Positions 14,548-55,273 of a stretch of DNA of 64,000 nucleotides are shown here, one piece after another (positions within the stretch are counted from its first letter, which is position 1; each line of letters begins with the position of its first letter). The stretch is taken from the NCBI RefSeq assembly GCF_900102365.1, contig NZ_FOIN01000010.1:1-64000 (forward strand). Direction: 5' to 3'. Made by a program: the position numbers and the translations under genes. Source of the DNA: Thomasclavelia cocleata. Its GTDB lineage: Bacteria; Bacillota_I; Bacilli_A; Erysipelotrichales; Coprobacillaceae. Under the pieces are notes generated by a model, which was not told where the DNA came from, searched no databases, and saw only the letters and a program-made list of their open reading frames with translations.

Positions 14548-14954
14548 AATTCCTCCTAAAATAATAATCAATTTTATTATACAATTTTTCTGATTATTTA
14601 CAAATAAAATAGAGACTAAGAACTAAAATTTCTCGTTCCTTTTACAGCACTATATATACCAAAGTGTACTAATTAGACTAAGCAATATATCAATAGCTCT
14701 TTTTTCTCTATGAAACATAACACTTTTATTCCATATACTCACTATCTTTACATTAGTTACTTACTCATGCTATCGGACTTTAACCTATTGTACAGTCTCA
14801 TCAATTAAATATATATATAATAATTCTTGTTCCTTGATTCAAGACTTTACCACAAACTTTTCCAGTTGATACCATGTCTAGAACTAATAACTAACAGTAT
14901 AAAATCTTTCAATAAATTTTCACCACTTAGTATTAAACCAAGTATATCATATAT
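14548..14954. other. Intergenic, no supported gene
   Basis: About 400 bases between the Cof-type gene and the Feo operon terminator. A plus-strand open frame (14827-15078) runs antisense into the Feo partner gene and has no ribosome-binding site. Nothing else is recognisable. Confidence 0.4.
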
Positions 14955-21636: not shown

Positions 21637-21685
21637 ATTATAAAATTTTTTTTACTAAAACACAACAAAAATGTTACCGTTTACA
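21637..21685 (-). promoter_or_regulatory. pfkA promoter with CcpA cre site
   Basis: On the minus strand TTGTGT (21660-21665) and TATAAT (21637-21642) are 17 bases apart. TGTAAACGGTAACA (21672-21685, minus strand) matches the cre consensus TGWAANCGNTNWCA at every position. It sits just upstream of the -35, the placement used for CcpA activation of carbon-overflow and glycolytic genes. CcpA itself is not encoded in the window. Confidence 0.8.
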
Positions 21686-28762: not shown

Positions 28763-29212
28763 TTACCAAGTATATTGGCGAATTATTTTTATTGCTTTTT
28801 GTCTATCTTTATAAACTAATTTCTGCATACTATCATCATAAATTTGGTCAAAATGTCCTAATGCATCAAGAATAACATTTATAAGTTCTGGTTTATATTT
28901 AGCAATAACAATTACATCTTGAATACATTGTCTTGCCGTAATTGGTTTTTCATCTTCGATATGGCTTAGCCATTGTTCAATAATAGAATTAATCTTATTT
29001 TCATTATCCCACTTCGCATGATAGGCAATTAATCGCAATCCTCTTGTACGAATAAATGAATTTGTTTTATTATTCATCATATCAACAAATTTATCAAAAA
29101 AAATATATAAATCATTGCTGTGCTCACAAACTAACAACAATTCTTTCAATGCGTTATATGCTTGTTTATTATCTGAACAAGTCAACATTTCAATCTGTGC
29201 TTCATAACTCAT
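28763..29212 (-). CDS. HEAT-like helical repeat protein, unrecognised
   Basis: The 149-residue product is predicted all-helical with HEAT-like pairs (IRTRGLRLIAYHAKWD, ARQCIQDVIVIAKYKPELINVILDAL). Similar small proteins occur beside regulators in clostridia, but I know no function. Its ribosome-binding region is unusual: a run of six G residues lies 7 bases before the ATG. It follows the GyrI-like gene by 54 bases on the same strand. Confidence 0.6.
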   Translation of the reverse strand: MSYEAQIEMLTCSDNKQAYNALKELLLVCEHSNDLYIFFDKFVDMMNNKTNSFIRTRGLRLIAYHAKWDNENKINSIIEQWLSHIEDEKPITARQCIQDVIVIAKYKPELINVILDALGHFDQIYDDSMQKLVYKDRQKAIKIIRQYTW

Positions 29213-31285: not shown

Positions 31286-31539
31286 AACAATCTATTAAAC
31301 AAAGACAATGAAGTGAAGTAGTAAATATATCTTAGATATCAGAGACATTGTGGCTGGTGTGAACAATGCGTTAAGAAATATTGAATTCATCATGGAGTCG
31401 GATACTGATATGTAGGTAGTCATCGGTTGCTAGCCGTTATCATAGTAAAGTTTTACACTTATTGAGATTATTAATGCGAATTAATAATGAATTTGGGGTG
31501 GTATCACGACTCTGTCGTCCTCTTTTGAGGACTTTTTTT
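31286..31539 (+). ncRNA. T-box leader, predicted tRNA-Phe (UUC specifier)
   Basis: AGTA (31317-31320) faces GAA (31383-31385) in the specifier loop, with TTC (31386-31388) next and then ATC-AT-GGAGTC, the standard layout GAA-specifier-AUC-xx-GGAGU. Between them lie CAGAGA and CATTG-TGGCTGGTGTGAA-CAATG, the distal stem I loops. GGTGGTATCACG (31497-31508) is a variant T-box sequence whose UGGU would pair with ACCA. The terminator is GTCCTC-TTTT-GAGGAC plus seven T (31517-31539). It should raise expression when Phe-tRNA is uncharged. Confidence 0.88.
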
Positions 31540-35401: not shown

Positions 35402-37316
35402 ATAGGGTAGAGAAATAAATTAGTTTATTGCCCCTCCCATTGACCCGTACGTACGGGTCTCGTATACGGCTCTACATTTATATCGAAATTACAAACTCTT
35501 AAGATAGTAGTTAAGAGGATTGACTAAACCAGGTCTATCCCTTTTTTCTTTGCTTAGTACTTTTGGTGATAGTATAAAATTCACGACATCTAGTCCACTT
35601 CTTCTATACCACCCTAATCTTGTGTTTGCGCATTTATAGATTTCTTCGTCACTAAATTTACATTTGTATATGATATTCAATTTCATTAGATTTCTGTAAA
35701 TTGTCATTGGTTTCTTCCACTGTTTGATAATGATACATCTTATCTTGTGGCGTAACCATTGTCCAAATTCATCTATGAAGTTCTTCATACTTCCTATCTT
35801 AAAATAGTTTATCCACCCTCTCACTATTTGATTGACTTTTATAAATGTTATTGCGAGTGGTCTTGTTACTGCTTGTTTTCTTTTAAGATATTCTTGTATC
35901 TTTGAATATAAGCGTTTCTTTCTATCTTGAGTAGGTTGGCATCTCCATTCTTGACTATTCTTATAAAATGTAAATCCTAAGAATTGTCCTTTCATTGGTC
36001 GAACTACTTTTGTCTTTGTTGCACTAACTTTCAAGAATAGTTTTCTTTCTAACCACGATGTCACTGACTTCATTACTCGATTAGCACTCATTTCACTTTT
36101 TACAAAAATGATACAATCATCTGCATATCTCACAAATCTTAGATTTCTTGTTTCCAACTCTTTATCAAATTTGTCTAGGTAGATATTAGATAAAATCACA
36201 CTGATAGGTCCTCCTTGCGGTGTTCCTATTGTTGTGCTTTTAATAAGTCCATTATCTAATACTCCTGCTCTTAGATATGCTCGTATTAAATGTAATGTTG
36301 TTGCGTCATTTACTTTCTCTCTTAAGATTGAAATTAATTTATCGTGATTTACTGTATCAAAGAACTTTTCAATGTCTAAATCAACTATCCATTCATAACC
36401 CTCGTTCAAGTATTGTAGTACTTCTTCCATTGCCATATGCGCACTTCTTCTTGGTCGAAAACCAAAACTATGTTCACTGAATATTGGCTCATAGATTTCA
36501 CTTAATACTTGAAACATCGCTTGTTGGATAACTCGGTCTACTACTGTTGGTATTCCTAATGGTCTTTGTTTCCCATTTGCTTTTGGAATATATACTCTTT
36601 TAACGGGCATTGGTCGATATTGTTTGTTCATTATCTTAGAGATGAGTTCTTCTTGATATTGTTCAAACCAATATTCAATTTCTTGTACCTTCATTTTATC
36701 TATTCCTGGTGCTCCTTTATTTTGTTTGACCTTTTTGATTGCCATTTCTAAATTCTCTTTACTTAAAATCTTTTCCATTAATTTCATTTGCTGCTCCTCA
36801 TCTATTTGTAAATTTATTTGGAAACCTCCCAATTACCTTTACCATCTATGATTACGTTTCATAGTTCTAGGCTATCCTCATATTCGGATTATCCAAACAT
36901 TGCTTATAGTGATTTGCACTCTATAAACGTTTCAGTCCTTCTGTATTTCTACCTACTATGACTTCATCTGACTTCTTATGGTAAACCTTTTTCGACCGAG
37001 GGTACTATCACTGATTTTAAAGTTTACTAGACTTCCTCGTCCATAAGACCTCCCGGGGTAAGACATGAACCCTATTTCTTTCACAACGTCTTGATTTACT
37101 GTCTTGGTTTTACGTTTACCTTTTGAACTTCGGTTTGTATTGCAACCTTATCCACCATTTAGCCTCATCAAGTTTCTGTTCGTACGCTCAAAAGAATCGC
37201 TACACCACTTCCTTCACCCATGACATCACTATCAACGGCTTGTGGTTCACTACACTTGGCGGTAAATACCTGTGGTTGGTTTATCTCCAACTGAATTCGT
37301 GTCATGCCCGGCACAC
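35402..37316 (-). mobile_element. Group IIC intron
   Basis: The minus strand begins at 37316 with GTGTGCCGGGCATGACACG, close to the GUGUGCCCGGCAUGG 5' end of the Oceanobacillus iheyensis group IIC intron. CTTACCCCGGGAGGTCTTATGG near 37050 matches its mid-intron element. Domain V (GAGCCGTATACGAGACCC..) is at about 35441-35473 and domain VI ends at CTCTACCCTAT near 35402. The IEP lies within domain IV. The 5' exon is a terminator hairpin (37317-37363), the usual IIC target. The 3' end could be off by a base or two. Confidence 0.88.
35489..36787 (-). CDS. Group II intron reverse transcriptase/maturase
   Basis: The 432-residue protein has the RT fingers and palm (KGAPGIDKM, RPLGIPTVVDRVIQQA, HSFGFRPRRSAH, VDLDIEKFFDTVNHD), the active-site RYADD, and the maturase X domain (IVRGWINYFKIGSM). 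It has no endonuclease domain, as expected for IIC introns. It needs RT and maturase activity to splice and move the intron. The frame is intact, so the element may be active. ATG 36787 has GAGGAG upstream; a TTG 15 codons earlier is less likely. Confidence 0.95.
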   Translation of the reverse strand: MKLMEKILSKENLEMAIKKVKQNKGAPGIDKMKVQEIEYWFEQYQEELISKIMNKQYRPMPVKRVYIPKANGKQRPLGIPTVVDRVIQQAMFQVLSEIYEPIFSEHSFGFRPRRSAHMAMEEVLQYLNEGYEWIVDLDIEKFFDTVNHDKLISILREKVNDATTLHLIRAYLRAGVLDNGLIKSTTIGTPQGGPISVILSNIYLDKFDKELETRNLRFVRYADDCIIFVKSEMSANRVMKSVTSWLERKLFLKVSATKTKVVRPMKGQFLGFTFYKNSQEWRCQPTQDRKKRLYSKIQEYLKRKQAVTRPLAITFIKVNQIVRGWINYFKIGSMKNFIDEFGQWLRHKIRCIIIKQWKKPMTIYRNLMKLNIIYKCKFSDEEIYKCANTRLGWYRRSGLDVVNFILSPKVLSKEKRDRPGLVNPLNYYLKSL

Positions 37317-48786: not shown

Positions 48787-48997
48787 TAAAAAGTCGTCCT
48801 ATTGCTAGGAACGACTTAAATCGCGGTACCATCCTAGTTCATGAATAATTCATGCCCTCATTTAGCTAGTAACGCAGCTTACACGGTAATATTTAATTAC
48901 TCTCCAAAGCAGCTTTCCTATAAACATGATTAGTATTTTCACCAGCCATACTATCTCTAAAAAACATCTTTATAGTACTCTTCTTTTTCAACGATTT
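48787..48997 (-). ncRNA. T-box leader of alaS (Ala, GCU specifier)
   Basis: On the minus strand GAGTAC, then AGAGATAGTATGGCTGGTG with paired ATACT, then AAAGCTGCTTTGGAGAG give stem I with specifier GCT, placed 8 bases before GGAG as in the other T-box here. GGATGGTACCGCG (48822-48834) is the canonical T-box sequence. AGTCGTCCTA and TAGGAACGACT form the terminator, followed by T residues (48789-48817). Uncharged tRNA-Ala should permit read-through into alaS. Confidence 0.92.
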
Positions 48998-49002
48998 ACC
49001 AA

Positions 49003-53555: not shown

Positions 53556-54524
53556 CTAGAATAAAGTTTTTTCTATTTTTCTAAACAGCTCAGGTTCCAA
53601 ACAAATAATTTCTTTATCTTGTAAATAGTCCAATACCCCAAATGTTTTAACAAATTTTATTTTATACGCATGTAAAAGCTGATTATTTAATCCAAATTTT
53701 CTTTTCATACACTTATTCAACTCAAAATCCCCGTATTTACGATCTCCTATAATTGGATGAGTAATACTTGCAAGATGGATTCTAATTTGATGCATTCGTC
53801 CTGTTACTAAAGTTACCTCTACTAAACTATAATCATCATTAAATTTTATTGGCTTAACGATTGTCTCCATCGTTAATGCACCAGGATAATCTTTATCAAC
53901 TAATTTTACTTGTGCCTGATCTTCAAGTTTTACTATATAACCTTTAAGATTACGTTTTTGATTTAATTTCCCTTTACAAATAGTCAAATATGTTTTTTCT
54001 ATACAATGCCTTTGTTTAATCATTTCATTCAATATTTGTAATGCTGCTAATGTTTTACCAAAAATTACAATACCACTAGTATTCCGATCTAACCGATGTA
54101 CTGGTCCAGGCATAAAAGTATTTTCACGTCCTAAGTCCAGCTCATTTTTTTCAGCTAGATAACTTAAAACTTGATTAGTTAAAGTATTAATACTCTCATT
54201 AGCATCTTCATGTACCAATAATCCAACTGGTTTATATACAATTAGAACATTTTTGTCCTCATAAAGAACTTTAAAAGTTCTAGTTACTTGATATATATTC
54301 TTTGCAGCTGTGAATTCCTGAAATTTATCTTCATACAAAAACATTTCAACTAGATCATTATTCTTTAATATATATTTTTCATCTACTTTTTTCCCATTAA
54401 CTTTAACATCTTTTTTTCGAAACATTTTATAAATAAAATTAGCTGGAGCATTGACTAATAATTTTTTTAAATATTTATCAATTCTCTGGTTAGCATCATT
54501 TTCTGTTATTCTAAGTTCCTTCAT
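53556..54524 (-). CDS. RluA-family pseudouridine synthase with S4 domain
   Basis: The 322-residue protein has an N-terminal S4 RNA-binding domain (RIDKYLKKLLVNAPANFIYKMFRKKDVKVNGKKV) and the RluA catalytic domain with GPVHRLDRNTSGIVIF, where the Asp is the nucleophile, then GRMHQIRIHLASI. It isomerises uridines in rRNA; the closest relatives are RluC/RluD-like enzymes. It lies upstream of the ROK gene by 59 bases. Confidence 0.93.
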   Translation of the reverse strand: MKELRITENDANQRIDKYLKKLLVNAPANFIYKMFRKKDVKVNGKKVDEKYILKNNDLVEMFLYEDKFQEFTAAKNIYQVTRTFKVLYEDKNVLIVYKPVGLLVHEDANESINTLTNQVLSYLAEKNELDLGRENTFMPGPVHRLDRNTSGIVIFGKTLAALQILNEMIKQRHCIEKTYLTICKGKLNQKRNLKGYIVKLEDQAQVKLVDKDYPGALTMETIVKPIKFNDDYSLVEVTLVTGRMHQIRIHLASITHPIIGDRKYGDFELNKCMKRKFGLNNQLLHAYKIKFVKTFGVLDYLQDKEIICLEPELFRKIEKTLF

Positions 54525-54588
54525 CTATATCACCATTAATCATTATAACAAATTTTATAATAAATACCTACTTATTTTAATGAAACCC

Positions 54589-54617
54589 TTTACATTTACT
54601 AATTCAAATGTTATAAT
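54589..54617 (+). promoter_or_regulatory. Promoter for a short transcript upstream of Nudix gene
   Basis: TTTACA (54589-54594) and TATAAT (54612-54617) are separated by exactly 17 bases on the plus strand. Confidence 0.7.
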
Positions 54618-54623
54618 GACATT

Positions 54624-54714
54624 GTCAAGTGAAGATAATTCGCTTTACATACCCCCTATTATCACCCTTACGTGAAATAATATAAAAAAGTATGCACCCC
54701 CGCATACTTTTTTT
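54624..54714 (+). ncRNA. Candidate small RNA (about 90 nt) with C-rich loops
   Basis: A strong promoter and a strong terminator (AGTATGC 54689-54695, GCATACT 54702-54708, seven T) bracket about 90 bases with no ORF. GATAAT and ATTATC (about 54632-54664) form a first hairpin whose loop carries TACCCCCT; the terminator loop itself is ACCCCC. C-rich loops are how several Gram-positive small RNAs bind ribosome-binding sites. Alternatively it is an attenuated leader of the Nudix gene 25 bases downstream. Confidence 0.5.
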
Positions 54715-54739
54715 GTTATAATTTATTTGAGGTGAAACT

Positions 54740-55273
54740 ATGGAAAAGAAAATAGACAGCCATTTAATATATGATGGCAAAATTATTAAAGTATATAAAG
54801 ATACAGTAAAATGCGAAAATGGTAATGAGGCATTTAGAGAAGTAGTAAGACACCATGGCGGTGTAGGAGTTCTAGCAATAATTGATAATAAAATTTTATT
54901 AGTCAAACAGTACCGTTACCCTAATGCAACTGATACTTTAGAAATCCCAGCTGGTAAACTAGAATTAGGTGAAGATACTAAGCTTTGTGCTTTGCGAGAA
55001 CTAGAAGAAGAAACTGGATATAGTGCTAAAAGTATTACTCAAATAGCCAAATTTTTACCAACTCCTGGTTATAGTGATGAATGGTTATATGTATATGAAG
55101 CTAACGACGTCTTCAAAGTAGAAAATCCTCTAAATTGTGACGAAGATGAAGAAATTGAAGTTGTTGCAATAGACATAGATAAAGCATATCAAAAAGTTGT
55201 AAATGGTGAAATTTTTGATTCTAAAACAATGATTGCAATTATGCATGCTTATATTAATAAAAGAAAGATTTAA
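54740..55273 (+). CDS. Nudix hydrolase, ADP-ribose pyrophosphatase type
   Basis: The 177-residue protein has the Nudix box GKLELGEDTKLCALRELEEETG (about 69-90) with all catalytic glutamates, preceded by VKQYRYPNATDTLEIPAG and followed by PTPGYSDEWLYVYEA, which is characteristic of ADP-ribose pyrophosphatases. It hydrolyses ADP-ribose to AMP and ribose 5-phosphate. TGAGGTG precedes the ATG and TATAAT lies at 54717-54722, overlapping the end of the candidate small RNA. Confidence 0.92.
   Translation: MEKKIDSHLIYDGKIIKVYKDTVKCENGNEAFREVVRHHGGVGVLAIIDNKILLVKQYRYPNATDTLEIPAGKLELGEDTKLCALRELEEETGYSAKSITQIAKFLPTPGYSDEWLYVYEANDVFKVENPLNCDEDEEIEVVAIDIDKAYQKVVNGEIFDSKTMIAIMHAYINKRKI

Follow-up and report, generated by a model that had tools for sequence, protein, structure and literature searches.

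RoxS/RsaE (RF01820) is a short sRNA of Firmicutes whose C-rich single-stranded motifs bind the Shine-Dalgarno sequences (SDs) of metabolic mRNAs (PMC8216469, PMC9266662), and FsrA (RF02273), a C-rich sRNA of B. subtilis, acts on central metabolism through its C-rich regions (PMC8216469). The streptococcal csRNAs (RF02379) are about 90 nt long, with an unpaired anti-SD stretch between a 5' stem-loop and a stem-loop serving as terminator (PMC3091779), while RsaI of Staphylococcus aureus is repressed by CcpA and blocks the SDs of sugar-related mRNAs (PMC9266662). For the Coprobacillaceae, a family of common gut bacteria, neither Rfam nor the literature searched yielded an sRNA of this kind. The main text of two comparative surveys of non-coding RNAs (PMC6429828, PMC8632094) does not refer to these genera, and the surveys themselves note that sRNAs are missed by their method.

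The stretch analysed here (the window, 64,000 nt) is part of a 2.96-Mb Thomasclavelia genome and contains a free-standing gene for an RNA of about 90 nt with its own promoter and a strong terminator (54624-54714, + strand). It represents a new RNA family, similar in kind to sRNAs already described, that is conserved in the Coprobacillaceae. The gene probably encodes an independent, trans-acting sRNA whose C5 seeds would mask G-rich SDs and repress several mRNAs, with its promoter controlled by a LacI/CcpA-type protein.

A free-standing RNA gene and its fold

The gene sits between a divergent RluD-like gene and a Nudix gene (Table 1). Its promoter, TTTACA-17-TGTTATAAT, has 11 of 12 consensus bases and an extended TG and is the top-scoring promoter of the region, in agreement with the original prediction of a TTTACA-17-TATAAT promoter at this site. 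As promoter-like sites around the sRNA are no more frequent than in shuffled sequences (18 versus 17.9), the case for the sRNA rests on conservation and not on the promoter match. The same count could be taken to favour a functionless chance pairing of promoter and terminator between two genes, but family-wide conservation, compensatory changes and the conserved promoter contradict this explanation and make it exceedingly improbable. The body was anticipated to be short and non-coding, and indeed no plausible reading frame was found within it, nor are the indels among relatives multiples of three. The 94-nt predicted transcript folds with -24.0 kcal/mol, compared to -6.4 kcal/mol for shuffled sequences (z -7.8).

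Table 1 Features of the sRNA locus, in positions of the window.
Feature	Position	Strand	Evidence and remarks
RluD-like RNA pseudouridine synthase gene, divergent	53556..54524	-	Pfam PseudoU_synth_2 (120.7 bits) and S4
cre-like dyad TGAAACCCTTTACA overlapping the -35; putative regulator-binding site	54581..54594	+	seen in nearly all relatives
-35 hexamer TTTACA	54589..54594	+	kept in relatives
Extended -10, TGTTATAAT	54609..54617	+	position constant in relatives; TATAAT at 54612-54617
Predicted sRNA transcript, ~90 nt	54624..54714	+	covariance model 87.2 bits, E 6.5e-16 in own genome; start placed from the -10
Hairpin 1 (AAGUGA ... UCGCUU)	54627..54645	+	compensatory changes in 3/6 pairs; 98.9% of cells paired
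Single-stranded ACCCCC linker, first C-rich seed (CCCCC 54652-54656)	54651..54656	+	mean unpaired probability 1.00; conserved
Hairpin 2 (UAUUAU-CAC, loop CCUUAC, GUG-aa-AUAAUA)	54657..54682	+	almost invariant; ~97% of cells paired
Intrinsic terminator, loop ACCCCC (54696-54701), second C-rich seed	54684..54714	+	compensatory changes in 7/10 pairs
Extended -10 (TGTTATAAT) of separate Nudix transcription unit	54714..54722	+	still present after IS insertion in G006
Nudix hydrolase gene, outside the sRNA	54740..55273	+	Pfam NUDIX 66 bits

The conserved fold of the RNA has three hairpins. In an alignment of 31 orthologues, which was fitted to the covariance model and hence leans towards structure, 98.4% of cells are paired and 12 pairs (36 cells) show compensatory changes, a result that none of 500 shuffles equalled, whereas controls with a slid structure reached at most two such pairs. 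An independent alignment (A2) confirmed this with seven compensatory pairs, and RNAalifold recovered hairpin 1 and the terminator unaided. Hairpin 2 shows little covariation because it hardly varies, so its support comes mainly from pairing and from one relative (L028) in which a different stem has been rebuilt. The predicted terminator with ACCCCC as its loop was found; its stem varies across relatives and the loop remains C-rich.

A second CCCCC had been proposed to lie in the loop of a GATAAT/ATTATC hairpin. The letters are present, but this hairpin is absent from the minimum-energy fold, and its full 6-bp version is possible in just 9 of the 31 orthologues even when G-U pairs are allowed. 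In the conserved fold the UAUUAUCAC stretch pairs downstream, so that the CCCCC stays unpaired in the linker (mean unpaired probability 0.60-1.00 in relatives). Both C5 seeds are kept in relatives and predicted to be open, the first as a linker and not, as expected, as a hairpin loop.

Conservation in the Coprobacillaceae and independence from the Nudix gene

An initial search with a query of 201 bases turned up orthologues in most Coprobacillaceae genomes, and a covariance model made from 16 sequences matched 34 of the 43 genomes searched from this family, in 15 of 20 genera. Among named genomes, a pattern scan was positive in Thomasclavelia, Massilimicrobiota, Faecalibacillus, Candidatus Stoquefichus, Longibaculum and Beduini. 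Aligned orthologues have in common CATACCCCCTATTATCACCC(T/A)(T/A)ACGTG, the two C-rich seeds and the terminator. Sequence, structure and promoter conserved throughout the family strongly support a separate, non-coding, C-rich regulatory RNA, as originally proposed. The seed is the best-kept part of the sRNA, since two deviant loci (L063, L064) retain CCCCCTATTATC after losing the 3' arm of hairpin 2, and a third (L025) retains only CCCCCTAT. One genome (G034) carries a second, weak copy (35 bits, no C5 seed) that looks like a decayed duplicate.

No convincing homologue was found outside the family among 346 genomes of the class, where the stricter filters applied can miss weak relatives. Two weak extra-family matches were rejected, one (L065) as lying at the end of a reading frame and the other (L062) as a different C-rich RNA; a phage origin was likewise dismissed, the core being without a match in viral contigs. 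The L062 element (positions 1501-1608, + strand, genome G076) adjoins a prfA-like gene, has no Rfam match and folds into three hairpins with the C-rich loops UUCCCCCA, UCCCCCC and, in its terminator, CUCCCCC (z -12.8). It is a candidate for a further C-rich sRNA, in another bacterial family of the class.

In most relatives the Nudix gene lies directly downstream, with 26 nt between the end of the terminator and the start codon in the window. This arrangement would fit a cis-acting leader or attenuator, in which transcription of RNA and Nudix gene starts at one promoter and passes the terminator under certain conditions. Such a leader is very unlikely, for several reasons. In most relatives a separate extended -10 for the Nudix gene follows the terminator, the orthologues show no conserved anti-terminator pairing, and the terminator is strong in every one of them. 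Furthermore, the Nudix gene has been displaced without loss of the RNA in G008, where the sRNA is intact and an IS110-like gene lies upstream, in G014 and in others. The opposite case is found in G006, in which an IS element (L070:1260-3110; 528-aa transposase, ends GGGGCTGTAACG/CGTTACAGCC) located between the first seed and the Nudix gene has split the sRNA gene, cutting it off from a Nudix promoter that remains. Judged by its sequence, G006 is a natural knockout of the sRNA. That all of the RNA would run on into the Nudix gene, an outcome named at the outset as one that would speak against a discrete sRNA, is also unlikely in light of this retained -10.

Promoter control and candidate targets of the sRNA

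The promoter box is an imperfect TGTAA-N4-TTACA dyad over the -35, and in an alignment of 35 relatives TG(A/T)AA(C/G/A)CC-TTTACA is nearly universal, with partial versions in the diverged loci L025, L063 and L064. Compared to the cre consensus TGWAANCGNTNWCA, the geometry of the dyad is right and the centre is CC instead of CG in nearly all relatives. The nearest similar box in the genome itself, TGAAACCCATTACA, lies upstream of the gapA -35 and is kept in most of those Thomasclavelia genomes whose gapA promoter is readable, but is absent in most other genera. A CcpA-like protein is encoded beside tyrS (tyrosyl-tRNA synthetase) and scores 257 bits, under the curated ccpA cut-off. As a class, cre-like sites are not enriched in this genome (15 versus 19). 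A CG-centred cre-like site, TGTAAACGGTAACA (window 21672-21685, - strand), precedes a phosphofructokinase-like gene (pfkA) by about 70 nt, and another CG-centred one lies near adhE.

The dyad is probably bound by a LacI/CcpA-type protein. From its conservation, its resemblance to the gapA box and the presence of a CcpA-like protein we infer, reasonably in our view, that the sRNA promoter is under sugar-linked control. The position of the box over the -35 suggests repression, as opposed to activation at gapA, where the box lies upstream of the -35; in the simplest case, a LacI/CcpA-type protein at the dyad would repress the sRNA when sugar is plentiful.

Once transcribed from its own promoter, the RNA of about 90 nt would act in trans. 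The conserved three-hairpin scaffold is predicted to hold the linker ACCCCCUAUUAUC and the ACCCCC loop of the terminator open, so that the two C5 seeds could pair with G-rich SDs, keep ribosomes off and repress several mRNAs; on the best targets, hairpin 2 may open to allow longer pairing. Alternatively, the RNA could act mainly on another RNA or on a protein, as a sponge or decoy, and not on ribosome-binding sites. The near-invariant hairpin 2 and its CCUUAC loop are conserved beyond the need of two C5 seeds, and some C-rich sRNAs are known to be bound by other RNAs, as RoxS is by RosA (PMC8216469). Nevertheless, with two separate C5 seeds facing SD-like sequence, mRNA targets are the simpler explanation, and an unsystematic look for a G-rich partner RNA found none. 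We thus regard a sponge or decoy as unlikely.

GGGGG occurs 2-13 nt before ATG 283 times, compared to 123 for the reversed pattern; at about twice the control, G5 SDs exist to be bound. Within the window, GGGGG upstream of ATG is not commoner than in shuffled sequences. The longer AGGGGGT before ATG was rejected as a genome-wide signature since it does not exceed the reversed pattern in the genome itself (28 versus 31), and a search for the near-full complement GGTGATAATAGGGGGTATG with three mismatches allowed matched only the sRNA gene. Prediction of targets from the CCCCC seeds, as suggested originally, gave no enrichment of this longer motif but did yield a conserved site in Thomasclavelia. 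The AGGGGGT site with the best duplex is, in G000 as well as in G005, that of one EIIB-like gene, which encodes a membrane protein of 114-116 aa with a degenerate PTS EIIB domain (26 bits versus a Pfam cut-off of 27). Its SD, TAATAGGGGGTAT, is a perfect 13-nt complement of the sRNA in G000 and G005 (duplex energies -21.0 and -23.3 kcal/mol) and a 15-nt one in G002. The core ATAGGGGGT (AUAGGGGGU core) is found in 9/9 Thomasclavelia genomes (energies -18.3 to -26.1). The site was not found in other genera, though the sRNA seed occurs there, and it is still present in G006, where the sRNA is broken. Because the leader is conserved over its full length in Thomasclavelia, shared descent could explain the site, and the EIIB-like gene is therefore the best candidate target and not a proven one. 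In most genera of the family (loci L215-L244), a palindrome similar to ATAGTATACTAT overlaps the -10 region of the EIIB-like gene and is a probable operator of some regulator.

A G run before a HEAT-like gene in the window had been put forward as a pairing site. The run is real, but it lies on the minus strand, as AAAGGGGGG followed by TTACGTTAAATG before an ORF starting at 29212, and the gene is a weak target: cofolding gave a net -8.0 kcal/mol (duplex -13.9), compared to -16.9 (duplex -21.0) for the EIIB-like gene. Genes for an aminotransferase, IlvC, RelA/SpoT and a peptidase-ABC transporter have G5 SDs in two genera and are regarded as leads only; that of the aminotransferase occurs in many genomes, yet is lost in several that bear the sRNA. 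Further leads are sites in single genomes, such as the one at a D-lactate dehydrogenase-like gene of G005, where the complement is 13 nt long. Names of candidate targets were read from translations except where Pfam is cited.

Perhaps a single CcpA-like protein raises gapA through the upstream box and shuts off the sRNA through the box over the -35, such that at low sugar the sRNA would repress the PTS-related membrane protein together with biosynthetic or fermentation mRNAs bearing G5 SDs, throughout the family. In this full form the scheme is doubtful.

Comparison with described C-rich sRNAs

Rfam gave no match above threshold for the sRNA in the window, in a 200-base stretch searched at low stringency or in the orthologues. 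Elsewhere, the window contains two group II intron matches (14715-14884 and 37065-37235, - strand), one strong (96.8 bits) and one just over threshold (33.7 bits), and two T-box leaders (31299-31525, + strand; 48804-49000, - strand).

By analogy with RsaE, trans-acting masking of SDs is the best candidate mechanism for the sRNA, as had been proposed, but membership in that family does not hold: RsaE/RoxS (RF01820) scored 15.0 bits (E 2.8) against a gathering threshold of 79 and was not among the matches listed for the Massilimicrobiota orthologue (L019). The trait of unpaired C-rich seeds is shared, with linker and terminator loop both predicted open. Unlike the sRNA described here with its cre-like promoter box, RoxS/RsaE is known from Bacilli and Staphylococci and is controlled by ResD/SrrAB and Rex. 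FsrA (RF02273) scored 14.5 bits against a gathering threshold of 80 and differs in being Fur-regulated. The best full-length sub-threshold sRNA match on the + strand was to the csRNAs (RF02379; 19.4 bits, E 2, threshold 57). Their order of stem-loop, unpaired anti-SD stretch and terminator stem-loop is found here as well, with hairpin 2 in addition; csRNAs, however, depend on CiaR, occur in several copies and carry another conserved nonamer, whereas the Coprobacillaceae sRNA has one copy. In regulation RsaI would be closest if the cre-like box is bound by CcpA, a comparison that concerns the presumed regulation and the mode of action only and not homology.

On the best reading, the sRNA would work like RoxS/RsaE, FsrA and the csRNAs while belonging to none of them by sequence-structure score. 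Present in one copy, under a promoter with an operator-like box, and naturally knocked out in G006, the sRNA makes post-transcriptional control directly accessible to study in Thomasclavelia and related bacteria. It could also show whether SD masking by C-rich RNAs evolved more than once in the Firmicutes. Should the proposed control prove true, a major gut lineage would have evolved, independently, a sugar-gated sRNA comparable to RsaI and RoxS.
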